64,000 nt of DNA. Source: Bacteroidales bacterium (GTDB lineage: Bacteria > Bacteroidota > Bacteroidia > Bacteroidales > VadinHA17). A program made the position numbers and the translations under genes. The notes below the pieces were generated by a model. It did no database searches and was not told where the DNA came from. It saw only the letters and a program-made list of their open reading frames with translations. Within the stretch, counting starts at the first letter, position 1. The number at the start of each line of letters is the position of its first letter. Shown here piece after piece: positions 23,424 to 44,719 of this stretch. The stretch spans positions 245,084 through 309,083 of the forward strand of contig JAOZPG010000001.1 of NCBI GenBank assembly GCA_029932855.1. Reading direction: 5' to 3'.

Positions 23424-23470
23424 CTTTTCTTTTTATTAATCAGCCTTTGCAATTTCTTGCTTATCAGTAA

Positions 23471-24655
23471 TTATCTTTCAATTTCAGGAGGACAGGTTTG
23501 CAGCGATACCATAATGGCCGCCACATCTGCAATATTTGCTCCTACCAGCAAGTCTTGCAGTAGGGCAACCGCCTGAGTGTAAGAAGGTCCTCTTAGGTTT
23601 ATCCTGCGCGGTTTATCGCTGCCGTCAGTAACCATATAAAGTCCATATTCTCCACGTGATGCTTCTGAGCGTACATAAGTCTCTCCCTTTGGGATCCGCC
23701 AGTGCAAAACGTTTGGAGTTTCTGCTTTTATATCACCTTTTTCAGGCATCTTTGCCATGATCTGCCTTATAAGGTCAACAGAAGTTTGTATATCGTACCA
23801 TCGAATACGGCTTCGGTTATAAATATCAGAGTGATTCATCACCTTGGGTTCGAAATCGAGCTGGTCGTATATCAAATAAGGATAATCTTTACGCACATCC
23901 CTGTTATATCCTGCAGACCGGGCAACCGGACCCACAGCACCGTATTTGTCAATCCATGAGGGATCAAGCACTGCCACATCAATAGCACGTTTCTTAAACA
24001 CCGAGTTGGAATACATCAGGTTGTCTATATTTATAACGAACTGGTCTATCTCTTTCAGGTTTTCTTCCATTCTCTTCTTAAAACCACCGGGCAGCAGACC
24101 CCTGACTCCTCCCGGGGTCATAAACATATGATAAACCCTGCCACCGGTAAGTTCTTCAAAGCGGTCAAGAATAAGTTCTCTCATATATACTCCCCATTGA
24201 ACACCCAGTCCCAGCGCAAATGTACCTCCCTGTCCCGGAACAACTCTCAGCAATGCCTGCAGGCGAGCCATTTCCAGTAGCAGGGCACGTATCCATTTTG
24301 CCATTTCAGGGATATCTATACCTGAAAGCTGTTCAACACATGTGCTGTAAACATATTCGTTTGAATCGGGCTCAGCCACACACATACGGATACTGGTAGG
24401 CAGTCCCTGTACAAACAGGCGGCGCTCAATAAGTTTTTCGAAACCGCGGTGCAGGTAGCCAACATGGGTTTTTGACTCAACTATCTCGTCACCGGCAAGG
24501 GTTAGCTCAAGGGCCATGTTACCTGTAACACCAGGATGGTTAGGCCCCTGCCACAGTTTCACATACTTATGTGAATCCAGGTCGATCTGAAGCTTACCAT
24601 CTTCACCTTTTACAGGATATTTGCTTCTGTCTGTTTCTATGTTTAAAAGACTCAT
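23471..24655 (-). CDS. NuoD/EchE/MbxL-type large subunit lacking the [NiFe] cysteine pairs
   Basis: KLWQGPNHPGVTGNMALELTLAGDEIVESKTHVGYLHRGFEKL; GGVRGLLPGG; C-terminal DVAAIMVSLQTCPPEIER. Confidence 0.92.
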   Translation of the reverse strand: MSLLNIETDRSKYPVKGEDGKLQIDLDSHKYVKLWQGPNHPGVTGNMALELTLAGDEIVESKTHVGYLHRGFEKLIERRLFVQGLPTSIRMCVAEPDSNEYVYSTCVEQLSGIDIPEMAKWIRALLLEMARLQALLRVVPGQGGTFALGLGVQWGVYMRELILDRFEELTGGRVYHMFMTPGGVRGLLPGGFKKRMEENLKEIDQFVINIDNLMYSNSVFKKRAIDVAVLDPSWIDKYGAVGPVARSAGYNRDVRKDYPYLIYDQLDFEPKVMNHSDIYNRSRIRWYDIQTSVDLIRQIMAKMPEKGDIKAETPNVLHWRIPKGETYVRSEASRGEYGLYMVTDGSDKPRRINLRGPSYTQAVALLQDLLVGANIADVAAIMVSLQTCPPEIER

Positions 24656-24690
24656 ATCTTTCTTTTTTGTAAAATTATTCTTACCGCTTT

Positions 24691-25254
24691 TTATTTCTTT
24701 TCCTTACGGTATTCTCCCCATTCGCCAGGATGCATTTGTTCTTTCATATATTCTTTGGGATCGTTTGTCTTTGGTCTTTCACGCGGAAAAAATGTGTCGG
24801 CAGAATACTGCTTGGTATCAAAATCCCTGCGCATGGGAGGGATATTGTCCCAGCCCTCAAGAATAAAAGGTTCATCAACACCCGGACTTCCCGGGAAATC
24901 CACCCCGAACATTTCTTTTATTTCACGCTGATAAGTGGCTATCTGCTTCCATAGGTGATGCGCAGAATCCATTGATGCTTCTTTACGGTCTATCATGCAA
25001 CGTATTCCAAGGTCGTATTTCTCTTCAGGCTTATTCAGGAAGTATGTTAATTGAAACTTATCGTCTTCTATCCAGTCAACACATGAGAGTAGTACAAAAT
25101 GTGAAAAACCTTCTATATCACGTAAATGTGTTATTAGATTGATAAGATTTTCCTTTTTTGCACTGAGGAAAGTTAAATCGTCACGCTGATATACAATATC
25201 TTCTATTTCAAATGATGCAGACAGTTTTTCAAGCACTTGTTTCATTTGTTTCAT
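24691..25254 (-). CDS. NuoC/EchD/MbxK-like 30 kDa-type subunit
   Basis: THLRDIEGFSHFVLLSCVDWIEDDKFQLTYFL; EIKEMFGVDFPGSPGVDEPFILEGWDNIPPMRRDF. Confidence 0.9.
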   Translation of the reverse strand: MKQMKQVLEKLSASFEIEDIVYQRDDLTFLSAKKENLINLITHLRDIEGFSHFVLLSCVDWIEDDKFQLTYFLNKPEEKYDLGIRCMIDRKEASMDSAHHLWKQIATYQREIKEMFGVDFPGSPGVDEPFILEGWDNIPPMRRDFDTKQYSADTFFPRERPKTNDPKEYMKEQMHPGEWGEYRKEKK

Positions 25255-25354
25255 TTCATTTTAGTTTTCTCAGTTTCACCTTTTTTAGCCATTGTCCTGT
25301 TTTTCTCGGTTTGTCCCGGACTTAACAGTTTACCGGTTTTTACTTCTGTAGTTT

Positions 25355-26026
25355 TTACCAATTATAATCCGGCATATTCCAGTCCTTAATTATTTTCTTT
25401 TGGTTTTCTTTGTACCAGTCAAAATTTGCTGCATACTCATTTGCCTTTTCACCTTTACCTTCTTTTATCAGCTCTTTCAGTCTGTTAAAGGCAGCCAGTA
25501 ATGCTTCCGGACGAGGCATGCAACCTGCAACATAAACATCTACAGGAATATAATGATCTAAACGGTTTATTGTATTATAACTGTCGAAATACATTCCTCC
25601 GTTTATTGTGCAGCTTCCAAGTGCCAGGACATATTTTGGGCTTGGCATTTGTTCATAACTGCGAATTACTCTTTTCAGGGTTTTAACAGCCAGGTATCCT
25701 GAAATAATGAAAACATTGGACTGGCGGGGTGTTGGCCTTGATTGAATACCGAAACGAAAAGCATCGAAACGGGGAGTCATTAACGGAGGTATCTCTATAC
25801 TGCCACAGCCGGTACCAAAACCAAGAACCCATAATGATTCTGCCCTGGCCCAGTTAAGGAATTTTTCAACAACGGGGATAGAGTTAGGTTCATATACCTT
25901 TGGCCTTTCATCGCTGAAATAATCTTTTATAGGGTCAACGATAAATTGTTTACCGTCGGGGCCTGTAACCTCTCTTTTGGCATAGTGAGGATTTTCAAAC
26001 TTGTTATTATTTTTTGTTTCTGACAT
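25355..26026 (-). CDS. NuoB/EchC/MbxJ-like [4Fe-4S] small subunit
   Basis: LGFGTGCGSIEIPPLMTPRFD; PKYVLALGSCTINGGMY; DVYVAGCMPRPEALLAAF. Confidence 0.92.
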   Translation of the reverse strand: MSETKNNNKFENPHYAKREVTGPDGKQFIVDPIKDYFSDERPKVYEPNSIPVVEKFLNWARAESLWVLGFGTGCGSIEIPPLMTPRFDAFRFGIQSRPTPRQSNVFIISGYLAVKTLKRVIRSYEQMPSPKYVLALGSCTINGGMYFDSYNTINRLDHYIPVDVYVAGCMPRPEALLAAFNRLKELIKEGKGEKANEYAANFDWYKENQKKIIKDWNMPDYNW

Positions 26027-26087
26027 TTTCTATAAAGAATTTTTCTTCATTTCATATTTTGCGCTCACATAAGGTCTTTGTTTCAGG

Positions 26088-26996
26088 TTACATATATAGT
26101 ATGATAGCAAGTACACCAAAAACAAGTGGTATTTTCAGGAACCATGCTACCGATTGTTCAATGCGGAAGCGCGGGAATACTACTCCAACAAATACCGACC
26201 AGAAGTAAATAAAGAATGTTTTTAAAATAAATTCAAACCAGTTTGTTGCACCACCGAAAAACAAGTTCATAAAGAGAGCTGCTTCAACAACATGAAGAAT
26301 GGCAGCGTTTGTTTGCAATACACCTAAAAAAGTAGAATGATATTCAGTGGGGGGACCAATTGGGATTTCATTAGGTGCTTTTACCAGGTTGAAGGGAGAG
26401 TGACTTAATGCCCCCAGCAAAGAAAACATTCCGGCAATTGTTGCAACAGGGTTGGTCCACATGGTCCAGTTCTGAAATCCTCCCTGCTGAGCTTTAACAA
26501 TATCAATAAGTGAAAGAGTATCATATTGAATTGCCAGCGAAATAATTGCCAGTGTCATGGGGACTTCAATTGTTGTGAATTGTGACAGGCCCCGGCTTAT
26601 ACCTATCGCCGAATATGGATGGCCCCCTTCACCGGAACCAAGGGCCATTCCAAGCATTCCGAAAAACTGGAAATACATTAACAATACAAGGTCTCCATGG
26701 AAAGAATAATTAAGCCATAGCTCACTTCCTATGATCATAGGCATGAAAAGGAAGAGTCCGACTCCGCCACCGATCCTGAATACAGGTCCCAGGTAAAACA
26801 TTATACCATGACTTATCTGTGAGCGTAATGCGTAATTCTTAACAAGGTCAAGCCAGGGCTGGAACCAGCGTATGCCATATCTTTTGGCTACTCTTGCTCC
26901 CAGTTTCCTCATGATGGAGCTCATCAGCAGACCCCAGTTGAGAACTATCAGCAGGCCCAGAAGTGTAAATCCTAATCTCTTTATATCGAAGTCCAT
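26088..26996 (-). CDS. NuoH/EchB/MbxM-like membrane subunit
   Basis: Multi-TM; ALSHSPFNLVKAPNEIPIGPPTEYHSTFLG matches the NuoH/HyfC quinone-loop region. Confidence 0.9.
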   Translation of the reverse strand: MDFDIKRLGFTLLGLLIVLNWGLLMSSIMRKLGARVAKRYGIRWFQPWLDLVKNYALRSQISHGIMFYLGPVFRIGGGVGLFLFMPMIIGSELWLNYSFHGDLVLLMYFQFFGMLGMALGSGEGGHPYSAIGISRGLSQFTTIEVPMTLAIISLAIQYDTLSLIDIVKAQQGGFQNWTMWTNPVATIAGMFSLLGALSHSPFNLVKAPNEIPIGPPTEYHSTFLGVLQTNAAILHVVEAALFMNLFFGGATNWFEFILKTFFIYFWSVFVGVVFPRFRIEQSVAWFLKIPLVFGVLAIILYM

Positions 26997-27015
26997 TATA
27001 TCGTCTTTTTATTAA

Positions 27016-30000
27016 TTAGAATATCATTATTAAGTAAAAGGCTATGATGTAAGCAAGCACGTATGTTGTATATACCTGGCCATTGCCACTGTACAACCTA
27101 CGGCCATATTCTGCAAGTGAATGTGCCCAGTCGCTCATTGTATCCCAGAATTCGGTGATCTTTGGAGCCACCATCCAGCCCAGAGCTTTATTATAGCCTG
27201 CATAAATATTATAAGAGACATGTGTTGTCTCAGGACGCTGGGGTGCTTCGGCAGAATACACTATATTGAACTGTCCAACCTTTACTGCTTTACTGCTCAG
27301 CAATAACAGCCATCCCAGCAATGCCATAAACATTATTCCTATTGTTATCATCACTCCCGTGCCGTTCCAGTAGCCATAAGGAGCTGTTGCCAGGCCTCCT
27401 TCCCATGACAGTCCCGCATTGGGATACCATACAGATATCATTTCTCCAAGAGGTTTCAATACCAGGTCAGGTTTGGCTGAAAATATCATCAGGCCGATAA
27501 TGAGAATATATATTGGTATGGCAAACCAAATGGAAATATCTTTTACATGGCGCAGGTTATCTTTCAGCTGGCCCAGGAAAACAGAATAAATAAGCTTGAA
27601 CAGGTAGAGAAAAGCAATTATACCTGAGAAAAACACAATAACTCCCTGGAAGTACCAGTGTTTATCTATTACAGCATTGTAAAACAACCATTTTCCGGCA
27701 AAGCCTGATAAAGGAGGAACTCCGGCAAGGGCAATAATACCTATTAACACTGCAATAAAGGCCAGGGGCATATTTTTAATAAGCCCTCCCATTTTATACA
27801 TATAATGAGTACCGACTTTCAGCACTACAGCACCTATGGTAAGGAATAAGATAGACTTATACAGGAAGTGGTTAATAGAATACACCATAGCTGTCATCCA
27901 TCCCAGGTGCGACATCATGGCCAGGGCAAAAAGGATATAGCCCAGCTGTGAAATACTTGAGTAGGCAAGCAGGCGTTTTGCATCTTCCTGGAATGCTGCT
28001 GCCAGGTTACCAACAAGAGCAGTCAGGGCACCCAGCCATCCCAGCACATAAGCTACCCTGGTGGCTTCAGGGTTATTACCCATAGCTATCATCAATATCA
28101 TTAGTCCGAACACACCTGCTTTAAGCAATATTGCTGATACCATAGGAGATACATCACTTTCAGCTTCAGCATGTGCTCCCGGGAGCCATATATGTAAACC
28201 AAGGGAGGCAGTTTTTGTCATAAATCCAATTGCCAGCAGGCTGAATATTACAGTTATATTTCCGCCTACAGCTGCCAGTGAGCTTAACTGGATGCTTGCT
28301 GTTTCTGCAAATGATAGTCCGAAGGCTGCAAGTATTGCATATGCTCCAGCCATTGAGAATAACATATAACTTAAGCCGTGAGCCATAGACTTCTTACCGC
28401 GGATGATTAAAAAGTATGATCCTGCTGTCATCAGTTCCCATCCAAAGAAAAACTCAAGTGTTGTTGAAGCACGGATGATAATTGCAAGTCCGGCATACAT
28501 TAACAGGGCAACCGGATAAAAGCCTTCACGTTTTCCCTTGTAGGCAAAACCTGCTATAAATGTCAGTATGCCCCCCACAAGGAAGATAAGGGTAAAAATA
28601 AATCTTAACATATCCTCGCTGTATAAACCAGGGAGCATGTACCAGGATACTAAGGCCAGGCTTAATATTGACAGGATATTTTTTACAGCAGCAGGAAGAA
28701 AGTCGAGTAAATAAATAATAAGGATAAAAGCAAGTGCTATGAAATATAATCCATTAAAGTTTTCAGCGAAGGTGGATGAATAATATCCCGCGAGGTAAAC
28801 AAGTATGCCGAATAAAACAGGTGGTATTACTTTATTCCATTCAAGCTTAAAGGTCCAGGATTCATTGGATTCCATTTTTATAGCATAACCCAGCCAGCGG
28901 AAGAGATAGATTCCTTCCAGGAAGGAGCCTGTCAGTATCATGGCCAGAGTAAAATATAAGCCCTGTTGTGAGAGGCTCATTATCAGTTCCCACTTACCGA
29001 AAAATGAGGGGAATGGAGGGAAGCCTATGAGTGAAAACACAAATGTTCCAAAGAGAACCAGGAAAAGCGGTTTTTTACGCAGCAAGGCCCAGTCTTTTAA
29101 TTTATCTTTCTTTAGTAATCCGGCTATCCAGAACAAGCCAGCTTTTGCCAGGTAATGTGAGATCAGTATTGTAATTGCTATATATTCAAATTTATCACCC
29201 AGGAATGGTTTAAGTCCCAATATAGTCATAAGAAGCCCCAGCTGCCCTATAGAAGAATATCCGAGCAAACGTCTGGCTCCGGTTTGCTTCAGTCCAAACA
29301 GGTTGGAGCCGACAAAAGTAATAAGACCTGCCGTAGAGATGATTTTATACCATTGAAGGTCGGCTATAGGCATTAGCTTAAATAAAACGAAATACATGGC
29401 CGTAGCTGAAGCTGCAGATATTAATGCTGCAATGCCAGGGTCGGATGCTTCGTAAACATCAAGGGCCCAGCCATTGGCCGGGAAAGGTTTGAGCTCCAGG
29501 ACAACTGAAACAATGATCATTAATACAGCAACGCTTCCTCCTTTAAATGCAAGCAGGTTTGAATTGCTTATATCATCTATATTCAGGCTGCCGCTGAAAT
29601 AATAGGCAAAGATGATTCCCAGCAAAAAAATACCGGCAATAATGCCTGTAGCTATCATATATTTAAAACCGGCCTGTATTGATTTTCCATCCTGGATAAG
29701 AATTATCAGGCCTGCGGTGGCAATGCTTACAACCTCCATGAATACGAAGAGGTTAAAAGCATCCCGGGTGAGGATTATTACATTCAGTCCCATTACAAAC
29801 ACAAGAAAGACCATTATTGCATGTTTCCCTGTGTTTTTAAGGTTTTTGAACATATACAAGCCTCCGAGAAAACCTGCAAGATTAATAAGACTGCTAAGCA
29901 GAGCTTCATTCAGTCCCATTCTTAAATTAATAGAATATGGAGGTTTAAAACCTGCAGTATATACCTCTATAGCTTCTGCTCCCTGGTAAAGCTTAATGAA

Positions 30001-30141
30001 CCATGAGGACGATACAGCAGCCATAAGGGCAATTGCAACAAGCATAAGGCTAACAGCCAGGCCATTTGATTTTTTATTTAAAAAGCCCAGGGCAAAGGCA
30101 GTTCCAAGTCCTATGCTTATTATATGTATGGGTGAAATCAT
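27016..30141 (-). CDS. Fused double antiporter-like subunit (two MrpD/NuoL-M-N-type modules, MbxH-MbxH'-like)
   Basis: 1041 aa with two copies of the module: FNLFVFMEVVSIATAG...GARRLLGYSSIGQLGLL...SHYLAKAGLFW, and EFFFGWELMTAGSYF...DAKRLLAYSSISQLGYI...NHFLYKSILFL; C-terminal amphipathic extension. Confidence 0.9.
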   Translation of the reverse strand: MISPIHIISIGLGTAFALGFLNKKSNGLAVSLMLVAIALMAAVSSSWFIKLYQGAEAIEVYTAGFKPPYSINLRMGLNEALLSSLINLAGFLGGLYMFKNLKNTGKHAIMVFLVFVMGLNVIILTRDAFNLFVFMEVVSIATAGLIILIQDGKSIQAGFKYMIATGIIAGIFLLGIIFAYYFSGSLNIDDISNSNLLAFKGGSVAVLMIIVSVVLELKPFPANGWALDVYEASDPGIAALISAASATAMYFVLFKLMPIADLQWYKIISTAGLITFVGSNLFGLKQTGARRLLGYSSIGQLGLLMTILGLKPFLGDKFEYIAITILISHYLAKAGLFWIAGLLKKDKLKDWALLRKKPLFLVLFGTFVFSLIGFPPFPSFFGKWELIMSLSQQGLYFTLAMILTGSFLEGIYLFRWLGYAIKMESNESWTFKLEWNKVIPPVLFGILVYLAGYYSSTFAENFNGLYFIALAFILIIYLLDFLPAAVKNILSILSLALVSWYMLPGLYSEDMLRFIFTLIFLVGGILTFIAGFAYKGKREGFYPVALLMYAGLAIIIRASTTLEFFFGWELMTAGSYFLIIRGKKSMAHGLSYMLFSMAGAYAILAAFGLSFAETASIQLSSLAAVGGNITVIFSLLAIGFMTKTASLGLHIWLPGAHAEAESDVSPMVSAILLKAGVFGLMILMIAMGNNPEATRVAYVLGWLGALTALVGNLAAAFQEDAKRLLAYSSISQLGYILFALAMMSHLGWMTAMVYSINHFLYKSILFLTIGAVVLKVGTHYMYKMGGLIKNMPLAFIAVLIGIIALAGVPPLSGFAGKWLFYNAVIDKHWYFQGVIVFFSGIIAFLYLFKLIYSVFLGQLKDNLRHVKDISIWFAIPIYILIIGLMIFSAKPDLVLKPLGEMISVWYPNAGLSWEGGLATAPYGYWNGTGVMITIGIMFMALLGWLLLLSSKAVKVGQFNIVYSAEAPQRPETTHVSYNIYAGYNKALGWMVAPKITEFWDTMSDWAHSLAEYGRRLYSGNGQVYTTYVLAYIIAFYLIMIF

Positions 30142-32885: not shown

Positions 32886-33581
32886 ATGAAAAAAACAAGG
32901 GATGAAAATTGTACACAATGTGAGAGCCTGGCCGATTGTTTTAAAAACTTATCGGAAGAACAGCTCAAGACTATTCAGGAACACAGGGTACATATTAGGT
33001 ATAACAAGAAGGAGATAGTTGCCAAACAAGGTTCTTTTGCTACGCATATTATATTTATCAGGCAGGGATATTTGAAATTATATATTGAAGGGGAGTCCGA
33101 TAAGGAAGATCTGATCATAAACATTTTTGGTCCGAATCAGTTAATAGGTCTTTCCTCCCTGTTTGATAATAATACTTATCAATACAGTGTATCAACCCTT
33201 GTTCCTTCTGAACTATGTCTTTTTGAGGTTAAGGATATACAAAAGCTGATAGCCGAAAATTCAGATTTTGGATTAGGTATACTTCGCCGTTCACACAGGA
33301 GTACCCTTCATGCCTATAAGCAGATGTACAATCTTACCCATAAGCAATTGCATGGCAGGATAGCAAGTGCATTTCTGTATTTGTCACAGCAGGTATTTGT
33401 TGGTGATTCTTTTAAGATATTATTGAACAGGAATGAGCTGGCAAACTTTACTGCAATGTCAACCATGAGTGCTATCCGCACAATTAACAGCCTGAAGCAA
33501 CAGGGCATAATAAGTGATGTTAAGGGGGTGATCAGCATTCTTGACAAGGAAGCTCTTGAAGAGATAAGCAGATTTGGTTAA
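32886..33581 (+). CDS. Crp/Fnr family transcriptional regulator with N-terminal Cys cluster
   Basis: CTQCESLADCF N-terminus (C-x2-C-x5-C); cNMP-binding-type fold; HTH ILLNRNELANFTAMSTMSAIRTINSLKQQGII. Confidence 0.88.
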   Translation: MKKTRDENCTQCESLADCFKNLSEEQLKTIQEHRVHIRYNKKEIVAKQGSFATHIIFIRQGYLKLYIEGESDKEDLIINIFGPNQLIGLSSLFDNNTYQYSVSTLVPSELCLFEVKDIQKLIAENSDFGLGILRRSHRSTLHAYKQMYNLTHKQLHGRIASAFLYLSQQVFVGDSFKILLNRNELANFTAMSTMSAIRTINSLKQQGIISDVKGVISILDKEALEEISRFG

Positions 33582-36364
33582 TTATCCCATTTTGGCAGTT
33601 TGCATTCAGGACTAAGTTGCTTTAACAATTCCTGGAAATCATCAAGGCTGCGCATCATGATATCTGAATCCTCATTATGGCAATTAAGACATACACCTAC
33701 AGTAAGTATTCTTTTTTGTTCATTGAGGCTAAAAGGCCTGAAGTTATTTCGTGTGGAGACCTGGGCCCTTCTTTCACCAAGGAATGGTATCCATGCATCT
33801 TCCGGCAGATTATCATGTTTATTTAACTCATAGCGTGGAGTAAAGCTCCACTTCCTGCTTTCGTTATTGAAACTGAGTTTTCCTTCCCCGTATCCCAGGG
33901 TTACGGGATCATTGTGACACGACTTACAGCTTCTGCCTTCAGCCTGGATAGTATGGGGCCCGGCAGGGGAGAACAGGCGATGAAAGCTAAAAGTATTTGC
34001 GCCAGATCTTTTTGGATACATGTCTTTATCAAGTGTCATTACCATTCCGGGTATAGCGGGTTTTATTATCCGGTCAGATTTATTTTTATCCCGAACTTTT
34101 TCGGTTTCAATATTTTTCCTATTGTGTAATTCCACTCCCAGGGTTGGAGCTATAGCCATATACTTACCGGCATATTCAACCCAGGATCCTTTAGTATATT
34201 TATTAGCATATATATCATAGCCGGTGGTATGAGGTTCATATTCGGTATGACAGCCAAGGCAGCGTGGTGCCCACGATGTATGGCATGCACTGCAGCCCAG
34301 GTCGTCATGGGCTTCTCCCCGGGTACATATTTCTGCAGGTGGGAGGACAGGGTGCAAGTTCCCGGATAACTTAGAATACAGCCACAGGGAATCATTGTTT
34401 ATAAATGTATTTACCAGGGGGTCGCCGGATTTGAGGACTGACAGGTAGCGATGAGCCTGATCGGTAATAGCTCTCAGGTCATGGATCTTTTTTGATTCGG
34501 AATCGAATTCACCGGGAAAGAATGTTTTTCCGGGATTCTTTGTATGACAATCTTCACAGCTTACTTTCAGCTGATCTTCCTTGTGCCTGTAGATATTTCC
34601 GTCTCCCATTAATTCATAGGATGTATGGCAATCAATGCAGGCCATACCTTTACGGTGGTGAATATCATCTTCCATACGCATGAATACTCTATGATCTTCA
34701 AGTACCCTGAAGCCAGGGTTATCTAAAAGGCTGTCATGCTCATCAAGCTGTGTTTCGTGCCAGCCTTCATAATTGGTCGATATTCTTCCCGACCGGCTAT
34801 GGCATCCAAAGCAGTGATCATTACTTATATTTATTGATAATGAAGGATGAGAATTGAAGTAATAATTATTTTGCCGCTTAGTTGAGTGATAATCATTATG
34901 TGCTTTTAGTGAGCTGTCGGAATAATCCAGGTGACAGGCATTACATCCTCCCCCCCTGCTAAGCTGAGTGACAGGACCGGTTTCGGTCTTTTCATTGCCC
35001 AGGTGGCAGGAGGCACAGAGATCGCGAAGATGGTTGTCGGCAGCAGATTGCCCCAGTCCGCTAACATGACTCAGTTCATTTAGGTCTAAAGCTTCGCCAA
35101 AAACAAAGCGATCGACAGTGATCATTCCGCTTAAGGAAGACATCATGGAGGACTTAACTCGGACCGGGATATCGGGGTGGCAATCGGTGGTACCACAACT
35201 ACGCGCAGCATCTGTATTATTTCCCGGTATTAATATCATATTCCTGTGGGCATGAACTTTGTTAAGTGAGAAAGAATTTCCCCCGTGGCAGGATACACAT
35301 CCTATGGCTTCGGGATCATGAGCCGGTGAGAATCCTTTCATCCCGGAATGACAGACCAGGCAGCCTTCTTCCCTGCCAAGTACAACAGGGATGCCTGATA
35401 TTTCAAGGCTGTCGCGGTAGCTATCCGTACCGGCATACAGGGGGTTAAATGGATTGTAAAACAGCCTGTTTATTCCTTCATTCCATGGCCATTGCCATCT
35501 CCAGTTTTCGCCACGAAAGAAATTGCCGGTTACCGATAGCAGGAGGTAGGCCCAGAATGAATAAAGGATAAGGTTTCTTGTAAGTTGTTCCGGCCTGTTT
35601 CTTAATGAAGGAAGAAAATATATAAGAATTAGTATGCCGGTAATAAGCATTAAGGAAATGCCCGGGTAGCTCAGCCAGTGTAATATTTCCTGTAAGCCGA
35701 GAAAATACCAGGGCCCTTTCATAACAGGATCGAGATTATTATGTAGAGGAGCCTGGAAGAATATTGAAAGAACAGTTGTGAAGGCCAGGAGAATTATAAA
35801 GGTCCTTAAACTGCCCCAGATCGTTTTGGCATGTTCTATAATGATTATTACTAAAAATATGCTTGTTGTTGCCAGGTGGTGAACATAAATGAGCTGAAAG
35901 TCGCCTTCAGATCCCAGTACAGTGTATGAGATAAGATCACCGAAAACAGGTATTGAAGAAAGCAGGGATTCAAGTATTCTCCTGGCCTGCATACTGTCGG
36001 CATCGGCTTTTAATATAAAGCCCGAAAGCATTAACAAAAAGATAAAAAGAATGGATATTACCAGCCTGAACCAAACTCCTTTACGCAGGCTTATCTCTTT
36101 TGATTTTTTCAGGTAGTCCCAGATATGCAAAACAGCAAGAACAAGAAAGAACTGGGCACTCCAGTAGTGAAGATTCCTGAACAGGCTTGCCCAGGGATTG
36201 GCTATCAGCAGTCTTCCTATTGAGGAGTAGGGGTTTTCAATATCAAATGGAATGGCAAGAAATATTCCGGAAACAAGGGCAATAAGGAAGAAGCTCAGGG
36301 ACATCATTCCGTAGCTGTCGAAAAAGATCAGCTTCTTAATATTTCCGGTCTTTCTTAGTTGCAT
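33578..36364 (-). CDS. Cytochrome b fused to a C-terminal multiheme (12 putative sites) cytochrome c
   Basis: N-terminal cytochrome b (RNLHYWSAQFFLVLAVLHIWDYL; VHHLATTSIFLVIIIIEHAKTIW; GPWYFLGLQEILHW); C-terminal heme motifs CLVCH, CVSCH, CGTTDCH (CX4CH), CASCH, CNACH, CFGCH, CIDCH, CEDCH, CSACH, CLGCH, CKSCH, CLNCH. Confidence 0.92.
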   Translation of the reverse strand: MQLRKTGNIKKLIFFDSYGMMSLSFFLIALVSGIFLAIPFDIENPYSSIGRLLIANPWASLFRNLHYWSAQFFLVLAVLHIWDYLKKSKEISLRKGVWFRLVISILFIFLLMLSGFILKADADSMQARRILESLLSSIPVFGDLISYTVLGSEGDFQLIYVHHLATTSIFLVIIIIEHAKTIWGSLRTFIILLAFTTVLSIFFQAPLHNNLDPVMKGPWYFLGLQEILHWLSYPGISLMLITGILILIYFLPSLRNRPEQLTRNLILYSFWAYLLLSVTGNFFRGENWRWQWPWNEGINRLFYNPFNPLYAGTDSYRDSLEISGIPVVLGREEGCLVCHSGMKGFSPAHDPEAIGCVSCHGGNSFSLNKVHAHRNMILIPGNNTDAARSCGTTDCHPDIPVRVKSSMMSSLSGMITVDRFVFGEALDLNELSHVSGLGQSAADNHLRDLCASCHLGNEKTETGPVTQLSRGGGCNACHLDYSDSSLKAHNDYHSTKRQNNYYFNSHPSLSINISNDHCFGCHSRSGRISTNYEGWHETQLDEHDSLLDNPGFRVLEDHRVFMRMEDDIHHRKGMACIDCHTSYELMGDGNIYRHKEDQLKVSCEDCHTKNPGKTFFPGEFDSESKKIHDLRAITDQAHRYLSVLKSGDPLVNTFINNDSLWLYSKLSGNLHPVLPPAEICTRGEAHDDLGCSACHTSWAPRCLGCHTEYEPHTTGYDIYANKYTKGSWVEYAGKYMAIAPTLGVELHNRKNIETEKVRDKNKSDRIIKPAIPGMVMTLDKDMYPKRSGANTFSFHRLFSPAGPHTIQAEGRSCKSCHNDPVTLGYGEGKLSFNNESRKWSFTPRYELNKHDNLPEDAWIPFLGERRAQVSTRNNFRPFSLNEQKRILTVGVCLNCHNEDSDIMMRSLDDFQELLKQLSPECKLPKWDN

Positions 36365-36772
36365 CTATGTCAGTTGTATGATTATGCTTTTACCGTCACT
36401 GGTCCTGCTGTAATTATAGCTTTCGAGAGACTTTTTGGCCGGACCTTTCAGGCATGTGCCGTTCAGGTCGAAAACCGAACCGTGACAGGGGCATATCAGT
36501 TTATTATTTTCCATATGCTTTATCCTGCATCCCAGGTGGGTGCATCTTGAAGAAAAAATGCTCAGCCTGTCATTTTCTTTTATAACAATTACCTGGTCAA
36601 GAAAATGAATGCCTGCAGAAATATCTGCAGGTATTTTTATTTCTTTATTCAGGTTTTGCAGGAGTTTATGGTTTTTTACAGAAATGTGCCAGATAAGATA
36701 AAATGGAAATAGCAATATTAGTCCCGTGAGCCTGAAAAAATCCTTTCGTGATATTTTTAGTCCTTTTTTCAT
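36365..36772 (-). CDS. Rieske [2Fe-2S] protein
   Basis: CTHLGCRIKHMENNKLICPCHGSVFDLNGTCLKGPAKKSLESY; N-terminal membrane anchor; directly abuts the cytochrome b gene. Confidence 0.93.
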   Translation of the reverse strand: MKKGLKISRKDFFRLTGLILLFPFYLIWHISVKNHKLLQNLNKEIKIPADISAGIHFLDQVIVIKENDRLSIFSSRCTHLGCRIKHMENNKLICPCHGSVFDLNGTCLKGPAKKSLESYNYSRTSDGKSIIIQLT

Positions 36773-37290: not shown

Positions 37291-39543
37291 ATGAAGAAAA
37301 CAAGAAGAGATTTCATTAAAATTTCCGCGGTAGGATCAGGTGGGCTTGCACTGGGTTTAAGTACGATAAAGATTGCTAATGCCAGTGATGGGGAAAATGG
37401 CCTTTTCAAGTCTTCGCATGCCAGGCCGGTTTTGCAGAACAGGTATCCTACCTATTGCGAGGTTTGTTTCTGGAAATGTGCAGCATGGACATATACCGAT
37501 GATAATGGGGAGATAGTTAAGATAATAGGTAATGACGAGGATCCTCATTGTGAGGGAAGGCTGTGTCCGAGGGGAACAGGAGGAGTTGGTATGTATCATG
37601 ATGAGGACCGCCTGAAGAAGCCTCTTATCAGGGTAGAAAAAGATGGAAAACAGGAGTTCAGGGAGGCTTCATGGGAAGAAGCCCTGGACCTGGTGGCCGG
37701 GAAACTTAATAAGCTCAAGGAAGAGCATGGTGCGGAAAGCCTTGCATTATTTTCACATGGTTCAGGAGGGAAGATGATGAGTCATCTGGTTAAAGCATTT
37801 GGCACGACCAGTATTGCAGCTCCTTCATTTGCCCAGTGTCGTGGCCCCAGGGAAGTTGGATTTGCTGCTACATTTGGAGAGACTGTCCTGTCTCCTGAAA
37901 GAACAGATATACGTGATACCAGATGCCTGGTGCTTATTGGATCACATATTGGTGAAAATATGCATAATGGGCAGGTGCAGGAAATGTCGGATGCCATAGA
38001 TAAAGGTGCTACAATTATTACTGTTGATCCCAGGTTTTCAACTGCGGCCAGTAAATCACAATACTGGCTTCCTATTAAGCCGGCAACAGACATGGCACTT
38101 TTACTGGCCTGGATACATGTTATTATATATGAAGGCTTGTATGATAAAGATTATATTGAAAAATATGCTTATGGACTAGATCAGCTGAAACAGCATGTTA
38201 AGAACATGACTCCTGAATGGGCTTATGGTATTACCACCATTGAACCGGATGTAATTCGTAAGACAGCTCATGAGATGGCAGCTGCCTCACCAGCAGTTAT
38301 TATTCACCCCGGAAGACATGTTACCTGGTATGGTGATGATACTCAAAGGTCAAGAGCTATTGCCATATTAAATGCATTGCTTGGTTCATGGGGCAGAAGG
38401 GGAGGCTTTTATAATCCTGAGAAGGTAAACCTGCCTGATTATCCCTCACCCGGGTATCCCAAGCCAAAAAGAACATGGAAAGATGCTTTTCCCGGTCAGT
38501 ATAAATTAGTTGACGAGGTGCTTTCTACAGGAATATGTTATTCCAGCATCCCAAATCCTGATATGGAGTTCAATATAAAGGCATGGATGGTTTACGGAAC
38601 GAATTTGCTTGCTTCTTTACCTGAACAGGAAAAAACAATAGAGGCAATTCAAAACCTTGACTTCCTGGTTGTTATAGATACCATGCCAATGGAGATCACG
38701 GGTTATGCTGATGTTATTTTACCTGAGTGTACTTATCTGGAAAGGTATGATATATTAAGAGCTTCCCCGCACAGGGAACCATATCTTGCTTTAAGAATGC
38801 CTGCCGTAAAACCAAAATACGATTCCAAACCCAATTGGTGGATAGCAAAAGAACTGGGTTCGCGCCTGGGACTTGAAGATTATTTTAAATGGGAAAATAT
38901 TGAAGAGTATCTTGACTGGCAGTTGAAGAAGGTAGGTTCATCACTTGAGGAAATGAAGAAGATAGGTATTAAGAAATTCCCCAGGGAATATGAAGATCTG
39001 TATGCATTGAACGGAGAGGATTTTGAGTTTAATACAAATACGGGAAAGATTGAACTTTATTCCACCGAGCTTGCAAGTGAAGGATTTGATCCATTGCCGA
39101 AATATACTCATCACAGGGAGCCCGATCCGGGTTATTACAGATTGAATTACGGACGTGCACCCATGCATACTTTCAGTCGTACGGCCAATAATCCAAATCT
39201 TACAGACCTGATGGATGAGAATAATGTATGGGTGAATCCTAAAGTTGCCAGTATTTGGGGATTAAAGAACGATCAGTATGTGTATCTAAAGAACCAGGAC
39301 GGAGTTGTAACTTCCTTCCCTGTAAAAATAAGGATAACCGAAAGGATACGCTGGGATTCGGTTTATATGGTTCATGGCTTTGGGCATGCTGATAAAAAAC
39401 TTACACGTGCTTATGGAAAAGGTGCCAGTGATTCGGAAATGATTACAAATGTTAAGATCGACCCTGTTATGGGTGGTACCGGCATGAGAGAGAATTTTGT
39501 GACTTTTATTACTGAGCTTGAAAAAAAGGAGGATAGATCATGA
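37291..39543 (+). CDS. Molybdopterin-dependent oxidoreductase catalytic subunit, PsrA/PhsA-like, Tat-exported
   Basis: Tat-type MKKTRRDFIKISAVGSGGLALG; [4Fe-4S] motif CEVCFWKC...CEGRLCPRG; Mo-ligand region FAQCRGPREVGFAATFG; C-terminal MGGTGMRENFVTF. Confidence 0.9.
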   Translation: MKKTRRDFIKISAVGSGGLALGLSTIKIANASDGENGLFKSSHARPVLQNRYPTYCEVCFWKCAAWTYTDDNGEIVKIIGNDEDPHCEGRLCPRGTGGVGMYHDEDRLKKPLIRVEKDGKQEFREASWEEALDLVAGKLNKLKEEHGAESLALFSHGSGGKMMSHLVKAFGTTSIAAPSFAQCRGPREVGFAATFGETVLSPERTDIRDTRCLVLIGSHIGENMHNGQVQEMSDAIDKGATIITVDPRFSTAASKSQYWLPIKPATDMALLLAWIHVIIYEGLYDKDYIEKYAYGLDQLKQHVKNMTPEWAYGITTIEPDVIRKTAHEMAAASPAVIIHPGRHVTWYGDDTQRSRAIAILNALLGSWGRRGGFYNPEKVNLPDYPSPGYPKPKRTWKDAFPGQYKLVDEVLSTGICYSSIPNPDMEFNIKAWMVYGTNLLASLPEQEKTIEAIQNLDFLVVIDTMPMEITGYADVILPECTYLERYDILRASPHREPYLALRMPAVKPKYDSKPNWWIAKELGSRLGLEDYFKWENIEEYLDWQLKKVGSSLEEMKKIGIKKFPREYEDLYALNGEDFEFNTNTGKIELYSTELASEGFDPLPKYTHHREPDPGYYRLNYGRAPMHTFSRTANNPNLTDLMDENNVWVNPKVASIWGLKNDQYVYLKNQDGVVTSFPVKIRITERIRWDSVYMVHGFGHADKKLTRAYGKGASDSEMITNVKIDPVMGGTGMRENFVTFITELEKKEDRS

Positions 39544-40073
39544 GATATGCAATGGCAATAGACACAAAGAAATGTGTCGGTTGTAGCGACTGTGTTGTCG
39601 CCTGTCAAACAGAGAATAATGTACCTGTAGGTTATTGTCGCGACTGGGTGGTGGAAAGTGTTGCAGGAAGCTATCCCCAGCTTGAGATTGAGATAAGGTC
39701 GGAAAGATGCAATCATTGTGATAATGCTCCTTGTGTGCGTTGTTGTCCCACAGGAGCCAGTCATATCGTTGATGGAGGAGTGGTGCTTGTGGATCCTGTA
39801 AAATGTATTGGCTGTGGGGCCTGTATTGAGGCATGTCCCTATGATGCACGTTATTCACATCCTGACGGACATGTTGATAAATGTACTTTTTGTATTCACA
39901 GGGTTGAAAAGGGGCAGGATCCTGCATGTGTTTCTGTTTGTCCTACAAATTGTATGTACTTCGGTGATCTGGATAATCCCAATTCTGATGTTTCCAAAGC
40001 TCTTGCAACCCGTAAGTATAAGGTGCTGGCACCTGAAGCAGGTACCAAGCCCCAGGTTTATTATTTAGTTTAA
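39540..40073 (+). CDS. 4Fe-4S ferredoxin electron-transfer subunit, PsrB/PhsB-like
   Basis: CVGCSDCVVACQTENNVPVGYCRDWV; CNHCDNAPCVRCCPTGA; CIGCGACIEACPYDARY; CTFCIHRVEKGQDPACVSVCPTNCMYFGD. Confidence 0.93.
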   Translation: MRYAMAIDTKKCVGCSDCVVACQTENNVPVGYCRDWVVESVAGSYPQLEIEIRSERCNHCDNAPCVRCCPTGASHIVDGGVVLVDPVKCIGCGACIEACPYDARYSHPDGHVDKCTFCIHRVEKGQDPACVSVCPTNCMYFGDLDNPNSDVSKALATRKYKVLAPEAGTKPQVYYLV

Positions 40074-40101
40074 GCAATATCCCAATAAAAAATAATTTGT
40101 T

Positions 40102-41043
40102 ATGAACGAAGAATTGATAATTAGTGGCAGAATGAACCCGGGGATTGATCCTTACTTACATGTATGGCACTGGCCAATCCCAACTTATCTTTTTCTTGGA
40201 GGGCTGGCTGCAGGCATATTGTTTTTTTCTGGTTTATACTATATACTGGGAAAAGAAAAGCAATTACCAACAGCTGTAAAATGGGCTTCTTTTCTTGCAG
40301 CTCCTGCCCTTGTAGTGGGCTTGTTTTTTCTTTTCATTGATCTGACCCACAAACTTTACTTCTGGCAGTTATATACAACAATTAGGCTTACATCTCCCAT
40401 GTCATGGGGCGCCTGGACACTTATGTTCATTACTCCACTGGCCTTTATCTGGAGTGCTACATACTTAAGGGAACTGGTGCCAAAATGGGACTGGAAGTTA
40501 AAGATCTTATGGAATTTCGAGGCGCTTGCGATTAAATACCGTACTCCCATCGCCTGGGTAATTATGCTCCTGGCAGTGATTCTTGGTATTTATACCGGTA
40601 TATTATTATCGGCATTTAATGCCAGGCCATTATGGAATACCTCCCTGCTTGGTCCCTTATTTTTAACATCGGGACTCTCAGCGGGAGCTGCTACAATTAT
40701 GTGGATGTCAAAAGATCATGCCGAACGTAGTCTTTTCAGTAAGATAGATCTGATACTGATAGGAGTGGAGCTGTTCTTTATTATTCATTTGTTTATGGGC
40801 TTCCTGGCTTCTACAGAGGTGCAGATACAGGCTGCTCAATTATTCCTTGGAGGGGAGTTTACTGTTTCATTCTGGGTATTCGTAATTATTATGGGCCTTA
40901 TCTTTCCTGCCCTGCTTGAAGTACTAGAATTACGAGGATTTAAAGTACCTGTTTTTATTCCTGCAGGACTTATACTTTTCGGGGGATTGATGTTAAGGTT
41001 TATTATGGTTGAAGCAGGACAGCTTACACGATATTTATATTAA
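40102..41043 (+). CDS. NrfD/PsrC-like membrane subunit
   Basis: HVWHWPIPTYLFLGGLAAGILFFSGLYY and multi-TM topology, directly after PsrB-like gene. Confidence 0.92.
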   Translation: MNEELIISGRMNPGIDPYLHVWHWPIPTYLFLGGLAAGILFFSGLYYILGKEKQLPTAVKWASFLAAPALVVGLFFLFIDLTHKLYFWQLYTTIRLTSPMSWGAWTLMFITPLAFIWSATYLRELVPKWDWKLKILWNFEALAIKYRTPIAWVIMLLAVILGIYTGILLSAFNARPLWNTSLLGPLFLTSGLSAGAATIMWMSKDHAERSLFSKIDLILIGVELFFIIHLFMGFLASTEVQIQAAQLFLGGEFTVSFWVFVIIMGLIFPALLEVLELRGFKVPVFIPAGLILFGGLMLRFIMVEAGQLTRYLY

Positions 41044-41064: not shown

Positions 41065-41601
41065 ATGCAAACAAAAGACATGGAAGAAAGGAGTAAACAA
41101 TTCATAAATCCCTATCTGGGAGGGGTGATGCTTGGCTTGTTGTTATTATTAACAATTTATATAACAGGCAGGGGGCTTGGGGCAAGCGGAGCTGTGAAAA
41201 GCACCGTAGTTACTGCTGTTGATAAAATTGCTCCGGCTTATGCTGAAAAGCAGGCTTATTACAGCAAGTTCCTGAGCGATGATCATCATCCTATGAACAA
41301 CTGGCTGGTATTTGAGACCATAGGTATTTTTGCAGGAGCTTTTTTATCGGGATTATTTGCCGGCAGGATTAAGAAATTCAGAGTTGAACATTCTCCTAAT
41401 ATAACGGCCAGGACAAGACTGATCTTTGCCTCCCTGGGGGGTGTGTTCTTTGGTGTAGGTTCGCAGTTTGGAAGGGGCTGTTCCAGCGGGGCTGCTATGA
41501 GTGGTACAGCTACTTTTGCCCTTGCAGGATTTTTAACCCTCTTATTGATGTTTGGTGTGGGTTACCTAATTGCTTACTTTTTCAGGAAGCTCTGGATTTA
41601 A
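41065..41601 (+). CDS. YeeE/YedE family half-transporter (first of pair)
   Basis: GGVFFGVGSQFGRGCSSGAAMSGTATFALAGFLTLLLMFGVGYLIAY motif. Confidence 0.85.
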   Translation: MQTKDMEERSKQFINPYLGGVMLGLLLLLTIYITGRGLGASGAVKSTVVTAVDKIAPAYAEKQAYYSKFLSDDHHPMNNWLVFETIGIFAGAFLSGLFAGRIKKFRVEHSPNITARTRLIFASLGGVFFGVGSQFGRGCSSGAAMSGTATFALAGFLTLLLMFGVGYLIAYFFRKLWI

Positions 41602-41628: not shown

Positions 41629-42219
41629 ATGGGACCATTAATAACACAGGGAATAATTAATCCGGAATGGAATTTTGTAATTGCCCTTGTCATTGGCATA
41701 GCCTTTGGTTATATACTTGAGGCCAGTGGTTTTTCATCTTCAAGAAAAATTGCAGGCGTATTTTACGGTTATGATTTTACGGTTTTAAGGGTATTTATGA
41801 CAGCCGTGGTTGTGGCTATGGTAGGCCTGGTTTATTTCAATTATATGGGCTGGATAGACCTTAGCCTGATATTTATTTTACCCACTTTTATGAAATCGGT
41901 GATCGTTGGCGGAGTACTTATGGGCTTTGGATTTGTTCTGGGTGGTTACTGTCCGGGAACCAGCTTTACAGGTATAGTTATTGGTAAGTTGGATGCCCTG
42001 TTTTTTACAGGGGGATTGCTTATAGGGGTATTTATCTTTTCTTCAATTTTCCCATGGATAGAAGCTATCTATTATGGAGGAGAAATGGGAGCTGTTACTG
42101 TAACTGAAGCATTAGGGATTTCAAGGGGGCTGTTTACATTTCTGTTTGTAATAGCCAGCCTTCTGGCTTTTATATTTACTTCATTAATACAATCAAAGCA
42201 GAAAAAGACAGATCTGTAA
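41629..42219 (+). CDS. YeeE/YedE family half-transporter (second of pair)
   Basis: FGYILEASGFSSSRKIAGVFYG; GGVLMGFGFVLGGYCPGTSFTGIVIGKLDALFFTGGLLIG. Confidence 0.85.
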   Translation: MGPLITQGIINPEWNFVIALVIGIAFGYILEASGFSSSRKIAGVFYGYDFTVLRVFMTAVVVAMVGLVYFNYMGWIDLSLIFILPTFMKSVIVGGVLMGFGFVLGGYCPGTSFTGIVIGKLDALFFTGGLLIGVFIFSSIFPWIEAIYYGGEMGAVTVTEALGISRGLFTFLFVIASLLAFIFTSLIQSKQKKTDL

Positions 42220-42230
42220 AAACTAATACC

Positions 42231-42863
42231 ATGAATAAAACATATTTTGTATTGATATTTATATTATTTGCTCTTGGCCTTGGGGCATTATTCCTGCCTG
42301 AAACACAGCACAATAAAGAAAGATCACCCAGGGAGCTTTTCCTCGCTATGAATAATCCTTCCAGGTTTGTAACTACCGACCAGGTTGCAAAAAAGATCAT
42401 TGAGGCAGATCCTACGCTTTTCCTTATTGATACAAGGCCATTCGATCAGTATGAATCTTATTCCCTTCCGGGGGCTGTAAATATTCCTCTGGAAAAATTA
42501 TTAGATACAAATGGTCTAATTTTTTCTGAATGGATGGATTACCTGGATATTGAGGGAGTGAATGCAGTGTTTTTCTCAAATTCAGATATTACAGCCGACC
42601 AGGTATGGGTAATATGTTCAAGACAGGGAATAGATAACTTGTATGTTATGAAAGGAGGACTGAACTATTGGGTGGAAACAATTCTGAAACCTGAAAAACC
42701 TGTTCAGTCAGCACCTTCTGAAGATTTTGCACTTTATGACTTTAGAAAGGGAGCATCACAATTTTTCGGTGCAGGTACTATTAGTATTGAGGCGGAAGTT
42801 ATTTCTGAGCCGGTGCCAAGGATGAGGAAGAAGAAAAAGACTGTGGCTTCGGGGGGGTGTTAG
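42231..42863 (+). CDS. Membrane-anchored rhodanese-like protein without an obvious catalytic Cys; C-terminal KKKKTVASGGC
   Basis: FLIDTRPFDQYESYSLPGAVNIPLEKL...VFFSNSDITADQVWVICSRQGIDNLYVMKGGLNYW; tail RMRKKKKTVASGGC*. Confidence 0.85.
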   Translation: MNKTYFVLIFILFALGLGALFLPETQHNKERSPRELFLAMNNPSRFVTTDQVAKKIIEADPTLFLIDTRPFDQYESYSLPGAVNIPLEKLLDTNGLIFSEWMDYLDIEGVNAVFFSNSDITADQVWVICSRQGIDNLYVMKGGLNYWVETILKPEKPVQSAPSEDFALYDFRKGASQFFGAGTISIEAEVISEPVPRMRKKKKTVASGGC

Positions 42864-42898
42864 TAGAATTTTAAGTTTTAAATCAATTATTTAAGATC

Positions 42899-43537
42899 AT
42901 GTTTCATGCAAATAATTCAAAGCGCTTAACAATTACGGCAATAGCTTTTGTACTAATTATTATTGTCGGATTGATAACTATGCACAAGCCCGAGCATATA
43001 TACAAGCTTAACCCGGCAGACCTTGTTGAGAGCATAATGATGAAGGATGGAGAGCTAACGCCCGGGAAAGCTGTTTACTATGCAGAAGAAAGCAATCCTG
43101 ATTTTGTGTTTATAGATATCAGGAATCAGTATGAATTTATTAAAGGGCATATACCTAATGCAATAAATATTCCTCTTACCGAACTGCTTTCAAAGGCAAC
43201 TCTAAAACAGTTTGATAAGTATTCTGAAGACAGTGTAACCATAGTTATATATGGCAACAGCCAGACGGATGCAAACGCACCCTGGATGATTTTGAAACAG
43301 CTTGCTTATCCGGATGTAAAAATCCTGCTTGGTGGATTTGATTATTACTCTAAAGACCATGCAGAGACAGGTGATACGGCCGGGATGCCTGAATATTATG
43401 TAGAGATCCCCAAATATGATTATGCAGCCATAGCAGCTGAAACATCATCAGGGGATGTTACCGGGCAGGACGTAAAAGCCGAACCGGTATTGCCTGTCAG
43501 GAAGAAAAAGAAAACAGTGGCTTCAGGAGGATGCTGA
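42899..43537 (+). CDS. Membrane-anchored rhodanese-like protein without an obvious catalytic Cys; C-terminal KKKKTVASGGC
   Basis: FVFIDIRNQYEFIKGHIPNAINIPLTEL...VTIVIYGNSQTDANAPWMILKQLAYPDVKILLGGFDYY; tail VRKKKKTVASGGC*. Confidence 0.85.
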   Translation: MFHANNSKRLTITAIAFVLIIIVGLITMHKPEHIYKLNPADLVESIMMKDGELTPGKAVYYAEESNPDFVFIDIRNQYEFIKGHIPNAINIPLTELLSKATLKQFDKYSEDSVTIVIYGNSQTDANAPWMILKQLAYPDVKILLGGFDYYSKDHAETGDTAGMPEYYVEIPKYDYAAIAAETSSGDVTGQDVKAEPVLPVRKKKKTVASGGC

Positions 43538-43540
43538 TAT

Positions 43541-44719
43541 TCAGCATTTATTAAGCGCCTGTTCAAGATCGGCAAGCTGATCCTCAACATTTTCAATTCC
43601 CACGGCTAACCTTACCAGTCCGTCACTTATGCCGGCCTTTATTCTTTCTTCGCGGGGGACGGCAGAGTGTGTCATGGATGCAGGATGCTGGATAAGTGTT
43701 TCTACCCCACCAAGTGAAACGGCCAGCAAGGCCAGCTTCATATTATCCATAAGGGTCTCGCCGGCTTTTAATCCTCCCTTGAGACCAAAGCTTATCATTG
43801 TCCCAAATCCCCTCATCTGTTGTTTGGCAAGTTCATGCTGGGGATGAGATTTTAGTCCCGGGTATTTTACCCATTCAAGCTTGGGATGCTTCTCCAACCA
43901 GGAAGCGATTATGGCAGCAGACTCCTGTGCTTTTTCAATTCTTATTGAAAGGGTTTTAACACCCCTGAGAACCATATATGCCTGGTGTGGATCCATGTTA
44001 AAGCCAAGATTTACCATCATGGGTCTTACCTTTTTATATAATTCTTCAGTCTTAGTTATAATTATCCCGCCAACTATATCGGCATGACCGTTAATAAACT
44101 TTGTGACTGAATGAAAAGAGATATCCGCACCCAGGTCAAGCGGACTTTGCAGGTAAGGGCTTGAAAAAGTATTGTCCACCACCAGTATCATATTATGTTG
44201 TTTTGCAATTTGTGCACATGCTTTTATATCTGACAACTGCATTGTAGGATTTGAAGGGGTTTCGAGATAAAGCATTTTGGTATTCGGCTTGATATGGCTG
44301 ATGATGTTTTCTATTGAAGAAGTATCAACATAACTTGATTCCACACCAAATTTTGAAAAATATTTTTCCATTATCACTCTTGATGGTCCGTAAACCGAAG
44401 CTGTACTTATCATATGGCTGCCCTGCTCCAGTATGCCCATATATATAGATGTTACGGCTCCCATTCCAGAGGAGGTGGCAATTGCACCGTATCCGTTTTC
44501 AAGAGCTGCAATATTATTCTCAAGTGCTTTAATTGTAGGATTGGCAATGCGGGTATAAATATATCCTTCTTCCTTTCCGGCAAAGCGGTCAGCACCTTGC
44601 TTTGCACTACGGAATGCAAACGTTGAACTTTGGTAAATAGGTACATTGGCACTTCCAAACTGGTCTATATCAATTCCGCCATGTACCATTTTCGTATTAA
44701 ATCCGGCTTTTTTATCCAT
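43541..44719 (-). CDS. Cys/Met metabolism PLP enzyme; methionine gamma-lyase or cystathionine gamma-lyase
   Basis: MVHGGIDIDQFGSANVPIYQSSTFAFRSAKQGADRFAGKEEGYIYTRIANPT; PLP lysine SVTKFINGHADIVGG. Confidence 0.92.
   Translation of the reverse strand: MDKKAGFNTKMVHGGIDIDQFGSANVPIYQSSTFAFRSAKQGADRFAGKEEGYIYTRIANPTIKALENNIAALENGYGAIATSSGMGAVTSIYMGILEQGSHMISTASVYGPSRVIMEKYFSKFGVESSYVDTSSIENIISHIKPNTKMLYLETPSNPTMQLSDIKACAQIAKQHNMILVVDNTFSSPYLQSPLDLGADISFHSVTKFINGHADIVGGIIITKTEELYKKVRPMMVNLGFNMDPHQAYMVLRGVKTLSIRIEKAQESAAIIASWLEKHPKLEWVKYPGLKSHPQHELAKQQMRGFGTMISFGLKGGLKAGETLMDNMKLALLAVSLGGVETLIQHPASMTHSAVPREERIKAGISDGLVRLAVGIENVEDQLADLEQALNKC

Follow-up and report, generated by a model that had tools for sequence, protein, structure and literature searches.

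The window analysed here is a stretch of 64,000 nucleotides from a contig (JAOZPG010000001.1) of a Bacteroidales bacterium. On its forward strand, genes for a PsrABC-like reductase are followed by genes for the two halves of a split YeeE/YedE (Y1 and Y2) and for two anchored rhodanese paralogues, A and B, that end in the same tail. The features are:

37291–39543, forward strand: PsrA/PhsA-like molybdopterin catalytic subunit with a Tat-like signal.
39540–40073, forward strand: PsrB-like Fe-S subunit.
40102–41043, forward strand: PsrC/NrfD-like membrane subunit.
41065–41601, forward strand: Y1, C-terminal half of a split YeeE/YedE (PmpA / YedE1 type); Cys139 is invariant (136/136).
41629–42219, forward strand: Y2, N-terminal half of a split YeeE/YedE (PmpB / YedE2 / DUF6691 type); Cys108 is invariant (138/138).
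42231–42863, forward strand: protein A, with a predicted anchor (residues 3–19), a Cys-less rhodanese domain (33–152), a helix (163–183) and a disordered arm (184–210) ending in GGC.
42825–42860, forward strand: tail of A, RKKKKTVASGGC; its terminal Cys210 is the sole conserved Cys of the A family (123/123).
42899–43537, forward strand: protein B, an anchored Cys-less rhodanese paralogue with Gly119 at the active-site Cys position and the same tail as A.
43499–43534, forward strand: tail of B, RKKKKTVASGGC, with 8/12 codons synonymously different from those of A.

The products of 37291–41043 comprise the molybdopterin, Fe-S and NrfD subunits that define a PsrABC/PhsABC reductase. Since the PhsA model score (474.7 bits) lies under the cut-off of 694, no substrate was assigned to this enzyme. 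Y1 and Y2 are half-length Sulf_transp (PF04143) proteins with one invariant Cys each, as expected of a split YeeE. Cys139 of Y1 aligns with the third conserved Cys of S. thermophila YeeE, and in a hand alignment the position of outer Cys22 of that protein is occupied by a Ser of the Y2 GFSSS motif; the Cys22-equivalent stretch is devoid of Cys in 142 of 145 Y2 proteins. A sequence search with Y2 against the PDB gave no match. The split transporter YedE1E2 imports zero-valent sulfur in one direction and needs both of its conserved Cys, one in mid-membrane and one on the cytoplasmic side; these residues, homologous to Y1 Cys139 and Y2 Cys108, are essential, and neither has been reported on the periplasmic face (PMC10812762). 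A 2024 study of SoxT leaves open how sulfur on the periplasmic side is handed to transporters of the YeeE type (PMC11582611). A second Cys, six residues past Cys108 at position 114 (CPGTSxC), occurs in 89/138 Y2 proteins and is replaced by Thr in Y2 of the window; its presence or absence could distinguish two subtypes of the transporter.

Both A and B match PF00581 (Pfam Rhodanese; E = 6e-12 and 2e-17, respectively) and no other Pfam domain. An AlphaFold2 model of A (60 sequences, mean pLDDT 88.5) adopts a rhodanese fold, with an anchor helix at residues 3–19, a further helix at 163–183 and residues 184–210 unstructured, and its best Foldseek matches are rhodaneses. Domain and fold thus place the proteins in the rhodanese superfamily. 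Neither qualifies as a catalytic rhodanese, since the loop Cys is replaced by Ser116 in A and Gly119 in B. An earlier note on this DNA, made without database searches, had described the loop as lacking Cys, and this holds family-wide: the alignment of 123 A and 66 B proteins contains no conserved catalytic Cys in the canonical loop, the position being Ser in 112/123 A (Cys in 2/123) and Gly, Ala or Ser in 56/66 B (Cys in 7/66). The terminal Cys forms the sole conserved Cys column in either family alignment, and 74/123 A and 37/66 B proteins have no Cys outside the last five residues.

The cores of A and B are ∼26% identical, and the proteins end in the same 12 residues. As the earlier note had claimed, 8 of the 12 codons differ synonymously (AGG AAG AAG AAA AAG ACT GTG GCT TCG GGG GGG TGT in A; AGG AAG AAA AAG AAA ACA GTG GCT TCA GGA GGA TGC in B). 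A degenerate tail pattern allowing up to three mismatches matched no site in the genome besides these two tails. No third tail protein was found in the window's genome, a weak negative, as this search had no positive control there. Further matches to a KK...GGC-stop pattern were obtained among 20 genomes; these are raw matches whose gene status was not individually confirmed.

To what extent the tail is retained by relatives was assessed with sequence and profile searches. A first search of the genome collection with B alone as query returned no matches, and a profile search succeeded; with B as query against 99 related genomes, homologues were found in 55. The A profile matched 60/396 Bacteroidota genomes and, in the phylum of a Neomarinimicrobiota MAG, 35/149 genomes, where the tails mostly read KKKKAPxGGC. 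The 80 loci that were named, the best 80 of 315, span Bacteroidales, Prolixibacteraceae, Flavobacteriaceae (Lutibacter, Mangrovimonas, Yeosuana, Jejuia), Draconibacterium and Carboxylicivirga. Among distinct closed ORFs from Bacteroidota and Marinisomatota, a terminal Gly-Cys followed by at most one residue was present in 123/123 A proteins, 62/66 B proteins and 9/9 fusions of Y2 with A, so the tail is not absent from orthologues, which would have refuted the earlier proposal. By comparison, a GC(x) end was found in 5/1,259 of the remaining ORFs in these loci that are 150 aa or longer, and each of the five belongs to the tail system; among unrelated ORFs of this size (about 1,254) the count is zero. 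The invariant part of the tail is Gly-Cys. GGC is found in 107/123 A proteins and is replaced by EGC or DGC in most of the remainder, and the basic stretch differs between proteins in both length and sequence, so that of the Lys-rich motif ending in GGC that was originally put forward, the C-terminal Gly-Cys is near-universal, whereas the second Gly and the run of Lys are not fixed. We conclude that the tail is a real, conserved and unusual feature.

Four of the 66 B proteins are exceptions. Three, encoded at loci L034 and L035 from the window's own genus and at L098, are truncated just before the linker, indicating that B can do without its tail where that of A is retained. The L035 copy is also frameshifted, which suggests decay of B following tail loss. 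The fourth, L131 (329 aa), has two rhodanese domains and had been placed among the B proteins in error.

The gene order PsrA-PsrB-PsrC-Y1-Y2-A(-B) is found in nearly all loci, and A is kept beside Y1 and Y2 where B is absent or where an octahaem-type cytochrome and cytochrome b561 replace Psr. In the second architecture, seen in many other Bacteroidota, a regulator, an octahaem-type cytochrome (PF11783), cytochrome b561 and Y1 are followed by a Y2-rhodanese fusion with the C-terminus (K)RVxGGC. PF11783 is a family associated with octahaem tetrathionate reductase; such a substrate in these loci would be an inference from family membership alone. In the loci seen, A is fused to Y2 and never to PsrA. 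The redox enzyme varies whereas Y1 and Y2 stay, which singles out YeeE as the tail's constant partner. Of the upstream partners initially suggested, the YeeE pair is thus upheld by conserved gene order and by the fusions; the link to PsrABC is not general.

A periplasmic location of the A and B tails, which had been judged probable from the N-terminal anchors, is supported by the predicted anchor, by the layout of the fusions, in which the A part is placed after the last Y2 helix, and by lipobox proteins that carry the same tail. In a model of a Y2-A fusion (pLDDT 74.9), the rhodanese part is of high confidence, the membrane half of low confidence and the tail disordered; the membrane part was too weak for placing the tail relative to the channel. 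A third protein with the tail, present in some genomes, is a double-rhodanese lipoprotein that retains the loop Cys of both domains (L045:2903-4042, L048:521-1618, L063:12506-13600, L120:4721-5860 and L160:7334-8455); its tail is often similar to those of A and B in the genome concerned. Given its lipobox, this tail is very probably exported. Some homologues of the lipoprotein lack the tail, which must have been gained or lost within that family. The tail is not strictly a substitute confined to Cys-less proteins, since the double-rhodanese lipoproteins have both loop Cys and the tail.

Co-variation of the tails within genomes was examined in 47 non-redundant A-B pairs, with tail identity scored over 5–12 residues. 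A tails share an identity of 0.72–0.80 with the B tail of their own genome versus 0.34–0.44 with B tails of other genomes, and none of 20,000 permutations reached the within-genome value. The A tail is closer to its own paralogue than to the nearest orthologue in 34/47 pairs and less close in 5/47. Examples within single genomes include QVISGGC twice, GVGGGC twice, EEEEGGC twice and GGGGGGC on three proteins, and where extra residues follow the Cys they are common to A and B in five of six cases (G, D, D, D, F). The match persists when K, R and G are excluded (2.53 vs 0.75 matches of 4), ruling out chance or low-complexity K runs. At matched tail residues codon identity is 0.54, compared with 0.49 expected from codon usage, and the window pair has 2/10 identical codons in this comparison. 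Near-chance codon identity, together with the 26% identity of the cores, leads us to reject recent duplication or conversion, in agreement with the earlier note. That conversion between neighbouring genes yields tail identity as a mere by-product is scarcely credible: the two genes are indeed adjacent and a few pairs have identical codons (10/10 at L173), but codon identity over the 47 pairs is near the codon-usage expectation, the window pair does not conform, and a lipoprotein gene on a separate contig (L246) encodes the tail EEGGC in a genome with EEEEGGC tails. Older conversion followed by synonymous drift could still account for part of the within-genome match. The simplest account, which rests on sequence comparison, is selection on the tail peptide, read by a common partner.

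On balance, and with only modest confidence, we favour the view that A and B are periplasmic swinging-arm carriers of sulfane sulfur serving the split YeeE, in line with the inference drawn in the earlier note. Conservation of the tail, loss of the loop Cys, linkage and fusion to YeeE, co-variation of the tails and their predicted disorder were seen directly; persulfide loading, docking at YeeE and the direction of transfer are inferred. The rhodanese domain, without its catalytic Cys, would act as a binding or docking body anchored to the membrane in the periplasm, the chemistry having shifted to a flexible C-terminal arm of ∼27 disordered, Lys-rich residues ending in Gly-Gly-Cys. The terminal thiol would most likely bear sulfane sulfur as a persulfide or thiosulfonate, although there is no biochemical evidence of modification of the tail Cys. 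The sulfur might come from a periplasmic sulfur-converting enzyme, PsrABC-like here and an octahaem-type cytochrome in other genomes, and be delivered to the outer mouth of Y1 and Y2, where the tail would supply the periplasmic Cys that is absent from the split channel (the reach of the arm has not been shown); it would then pass to Y2 Cys108 and next to Y1 Cys139. Under this proposal the tails of A and B co-vary within a genome because both must fit one docking site. A thiol on a mobile tether, usually with positive charge close to an anionic substrate and with matching versions on proteins that would use one dock, would suit the periplasmic gap.

Since the loci also encode redox enzymes, the arm might instead serve the reductase in the periplasm, be it PsrA/PhsA or an octahaem-type cytochrome, with linkage to YeeE being secondary. 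It would bring polysulfide or thiosulfate to the enzyme as Sud, the polysulfide-sulfur transferase of Wolinella, does for Psr. Like A and B, Sud is a periplasmic protein of rhodanese fold, and it acts with PsrABC; it works through its active-site Cys, which it retains, whereas A and B have lost this residue and carry a tail Cys instead. PsrABC shares the operon in most loci, the A profile matches Sud weakly (1qxn, E = 3e-5), and Sud is a periplasmic polysulfide carrier for Psr (PMC2628731). However, YeeE is constant and Psr is not, fusion-type loci use the octahaem-type cytochrome with b561, and A is joined to Y2 alone in the loci seen, so we regard service to the reductase as unlikely, if by no means negligible.

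In our judgement, a structural or redox role of the tail Cys is distinctly unlikely. The Cys would then form A-B or A-A disulfides, or act on YeeE or the reductase as a thiol-disulfide reductant, and the Lys-rich arm would keep the domains together or close to the membrane. Matched tails are compatible with parallel pairing, basic arms bind anionic lipid, and the single invariant Cys of Y1 and of Y2 are possible partners; the tail is nevertheless kept in genomes that have A only, some variants, EEEEGGC and GGGGGGC among them, depart from a uniformly basic character, and a GG hinge at the extreme end is better suited to a thiol that moves than to one with a structural role. A short C-terminal motif that occurs on different exported proteins and co-varies within a genome would also be expected of a signal for processing or attachment that a dedicated enzyme, sortase-like or lipidating, recognises. 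We hold this to be very unlikely, as the tail is limited to sulfur-handling proteins in the loci examined and no additional tail-linked gene stood out in them. Moreover, PEP-CTERM and MYXO-CTERM signals consist of a C-terminal transmembrane helix followed by basic residues, while the tail region of A and B is disordered and has no such hydrophobic segment.

Taken as sulfur carriers for YeeE, the tail proteins are best classed beside the swinging-arm carriers, as a variant whose carrier chemistry is unproven. SoxY (SoxYZ) is likewise a periplasmic sulfur carrier with its Cys on a flexible, Gly-rich arm, which the disordered arm and GGC end of A and B resemble (sulfur carriage by their Cys being inferred), and SoxY genes lie near YeeE in some genomes (PMC11237559). 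A and B differ in having a rhodanese fold, a membrane anchor and a Lys-rich arm, and no SoxY domain was detected in them, Pfam Rhodanese being the sole match. YeeD/TsuB also acts as a partner that adds an extra Cys, the cytoplasmic fourth, to the relay of YeeE/TsuA (PMC11073785), but YeeD is cytoplasmic and of TusA fold, unlike A and B, which are predicted to be periplasmic. PmpA/PmpB (YedE1/YedE2) are of the same split type as Y1/Y2, with one invariant Cys each, yet no anchored Cys-less rhodanese with a GGC tail is reported for them in the literature examined. To our knowledge, the split YeeE of other phyla works without such a tail-bearing partner. The YTD cluster of sulfur disproportionators similarly combines a YedE-type transporter with sulfur-transfer proteins, among them TusA and DsrE-like proteins (PMC12998232, PMC13047784); neither a TusA nor a DsrE gene is present among the annotated operon members of the window.

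No description of the GGC tail was found in the open-licence literature searched. We therefore raise tentatively, with slightly less than even confidence, the possibility of an undescribed class of periplasmic sulfur carriers that is widespread across Bacteroidota and Marinisomatota and has shifted catalysis out of the rhodanese pocket to a terminal Gly-Gly-Cys arm; the arm would be genome-specific and common to two or three exported proteins since all dock in the same split YeeE and provide its missing periplasmic Cys. For the periplasmic hand-over of sulfur to YeeE/YedE transporters, left open in PMC11582611, the tail family is a concrete candidate, linked genetically to the transporter and in part fused to it, that can be probed by mutating one residue. 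It suggests a pseudo-enzyme that has regained chemistry on its tail, and the tails of the paralogues clearly co-vary with one another, which predicts a shared docking partner. The gene set is present in cultured relatives (Lutibacter, Draconibacterium, Carboxylicivirga, Mangrovimonas) and is thus open to testing.

Several neighbouring genes were also recorded. Convergent with B lies a Cys/Met metabolism PLP-dependent enzyme (43541–44719, reverse strand); in two same-genus relatives an apparently different gene follows B. A complex-I-like cluster (21636–30141, reverse strand) encodes NuoH, NuoB and NuoD homologues, a GltD-like flavoprotein and a 1041-aa antiporter-subunit fusion that matches both NuoN and NuoM/L models. 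Between this cluster and the cytochrome genes is a Crp-family regulator (32886–33581, forward strand). Divergent from the Psr operon, 33578–36772 (reverse strand) encodes a 928-aa fusion of cytochrome b with multihaem cytochrome c and a Rieske protein, which might together be a partner complex resembling bc1. Both genes are again found next to the operon in L033, L034, L037, L056 and L067, and the cytochrome b protein was seen without a Rieske partner in Flavobacteriaceae loci.
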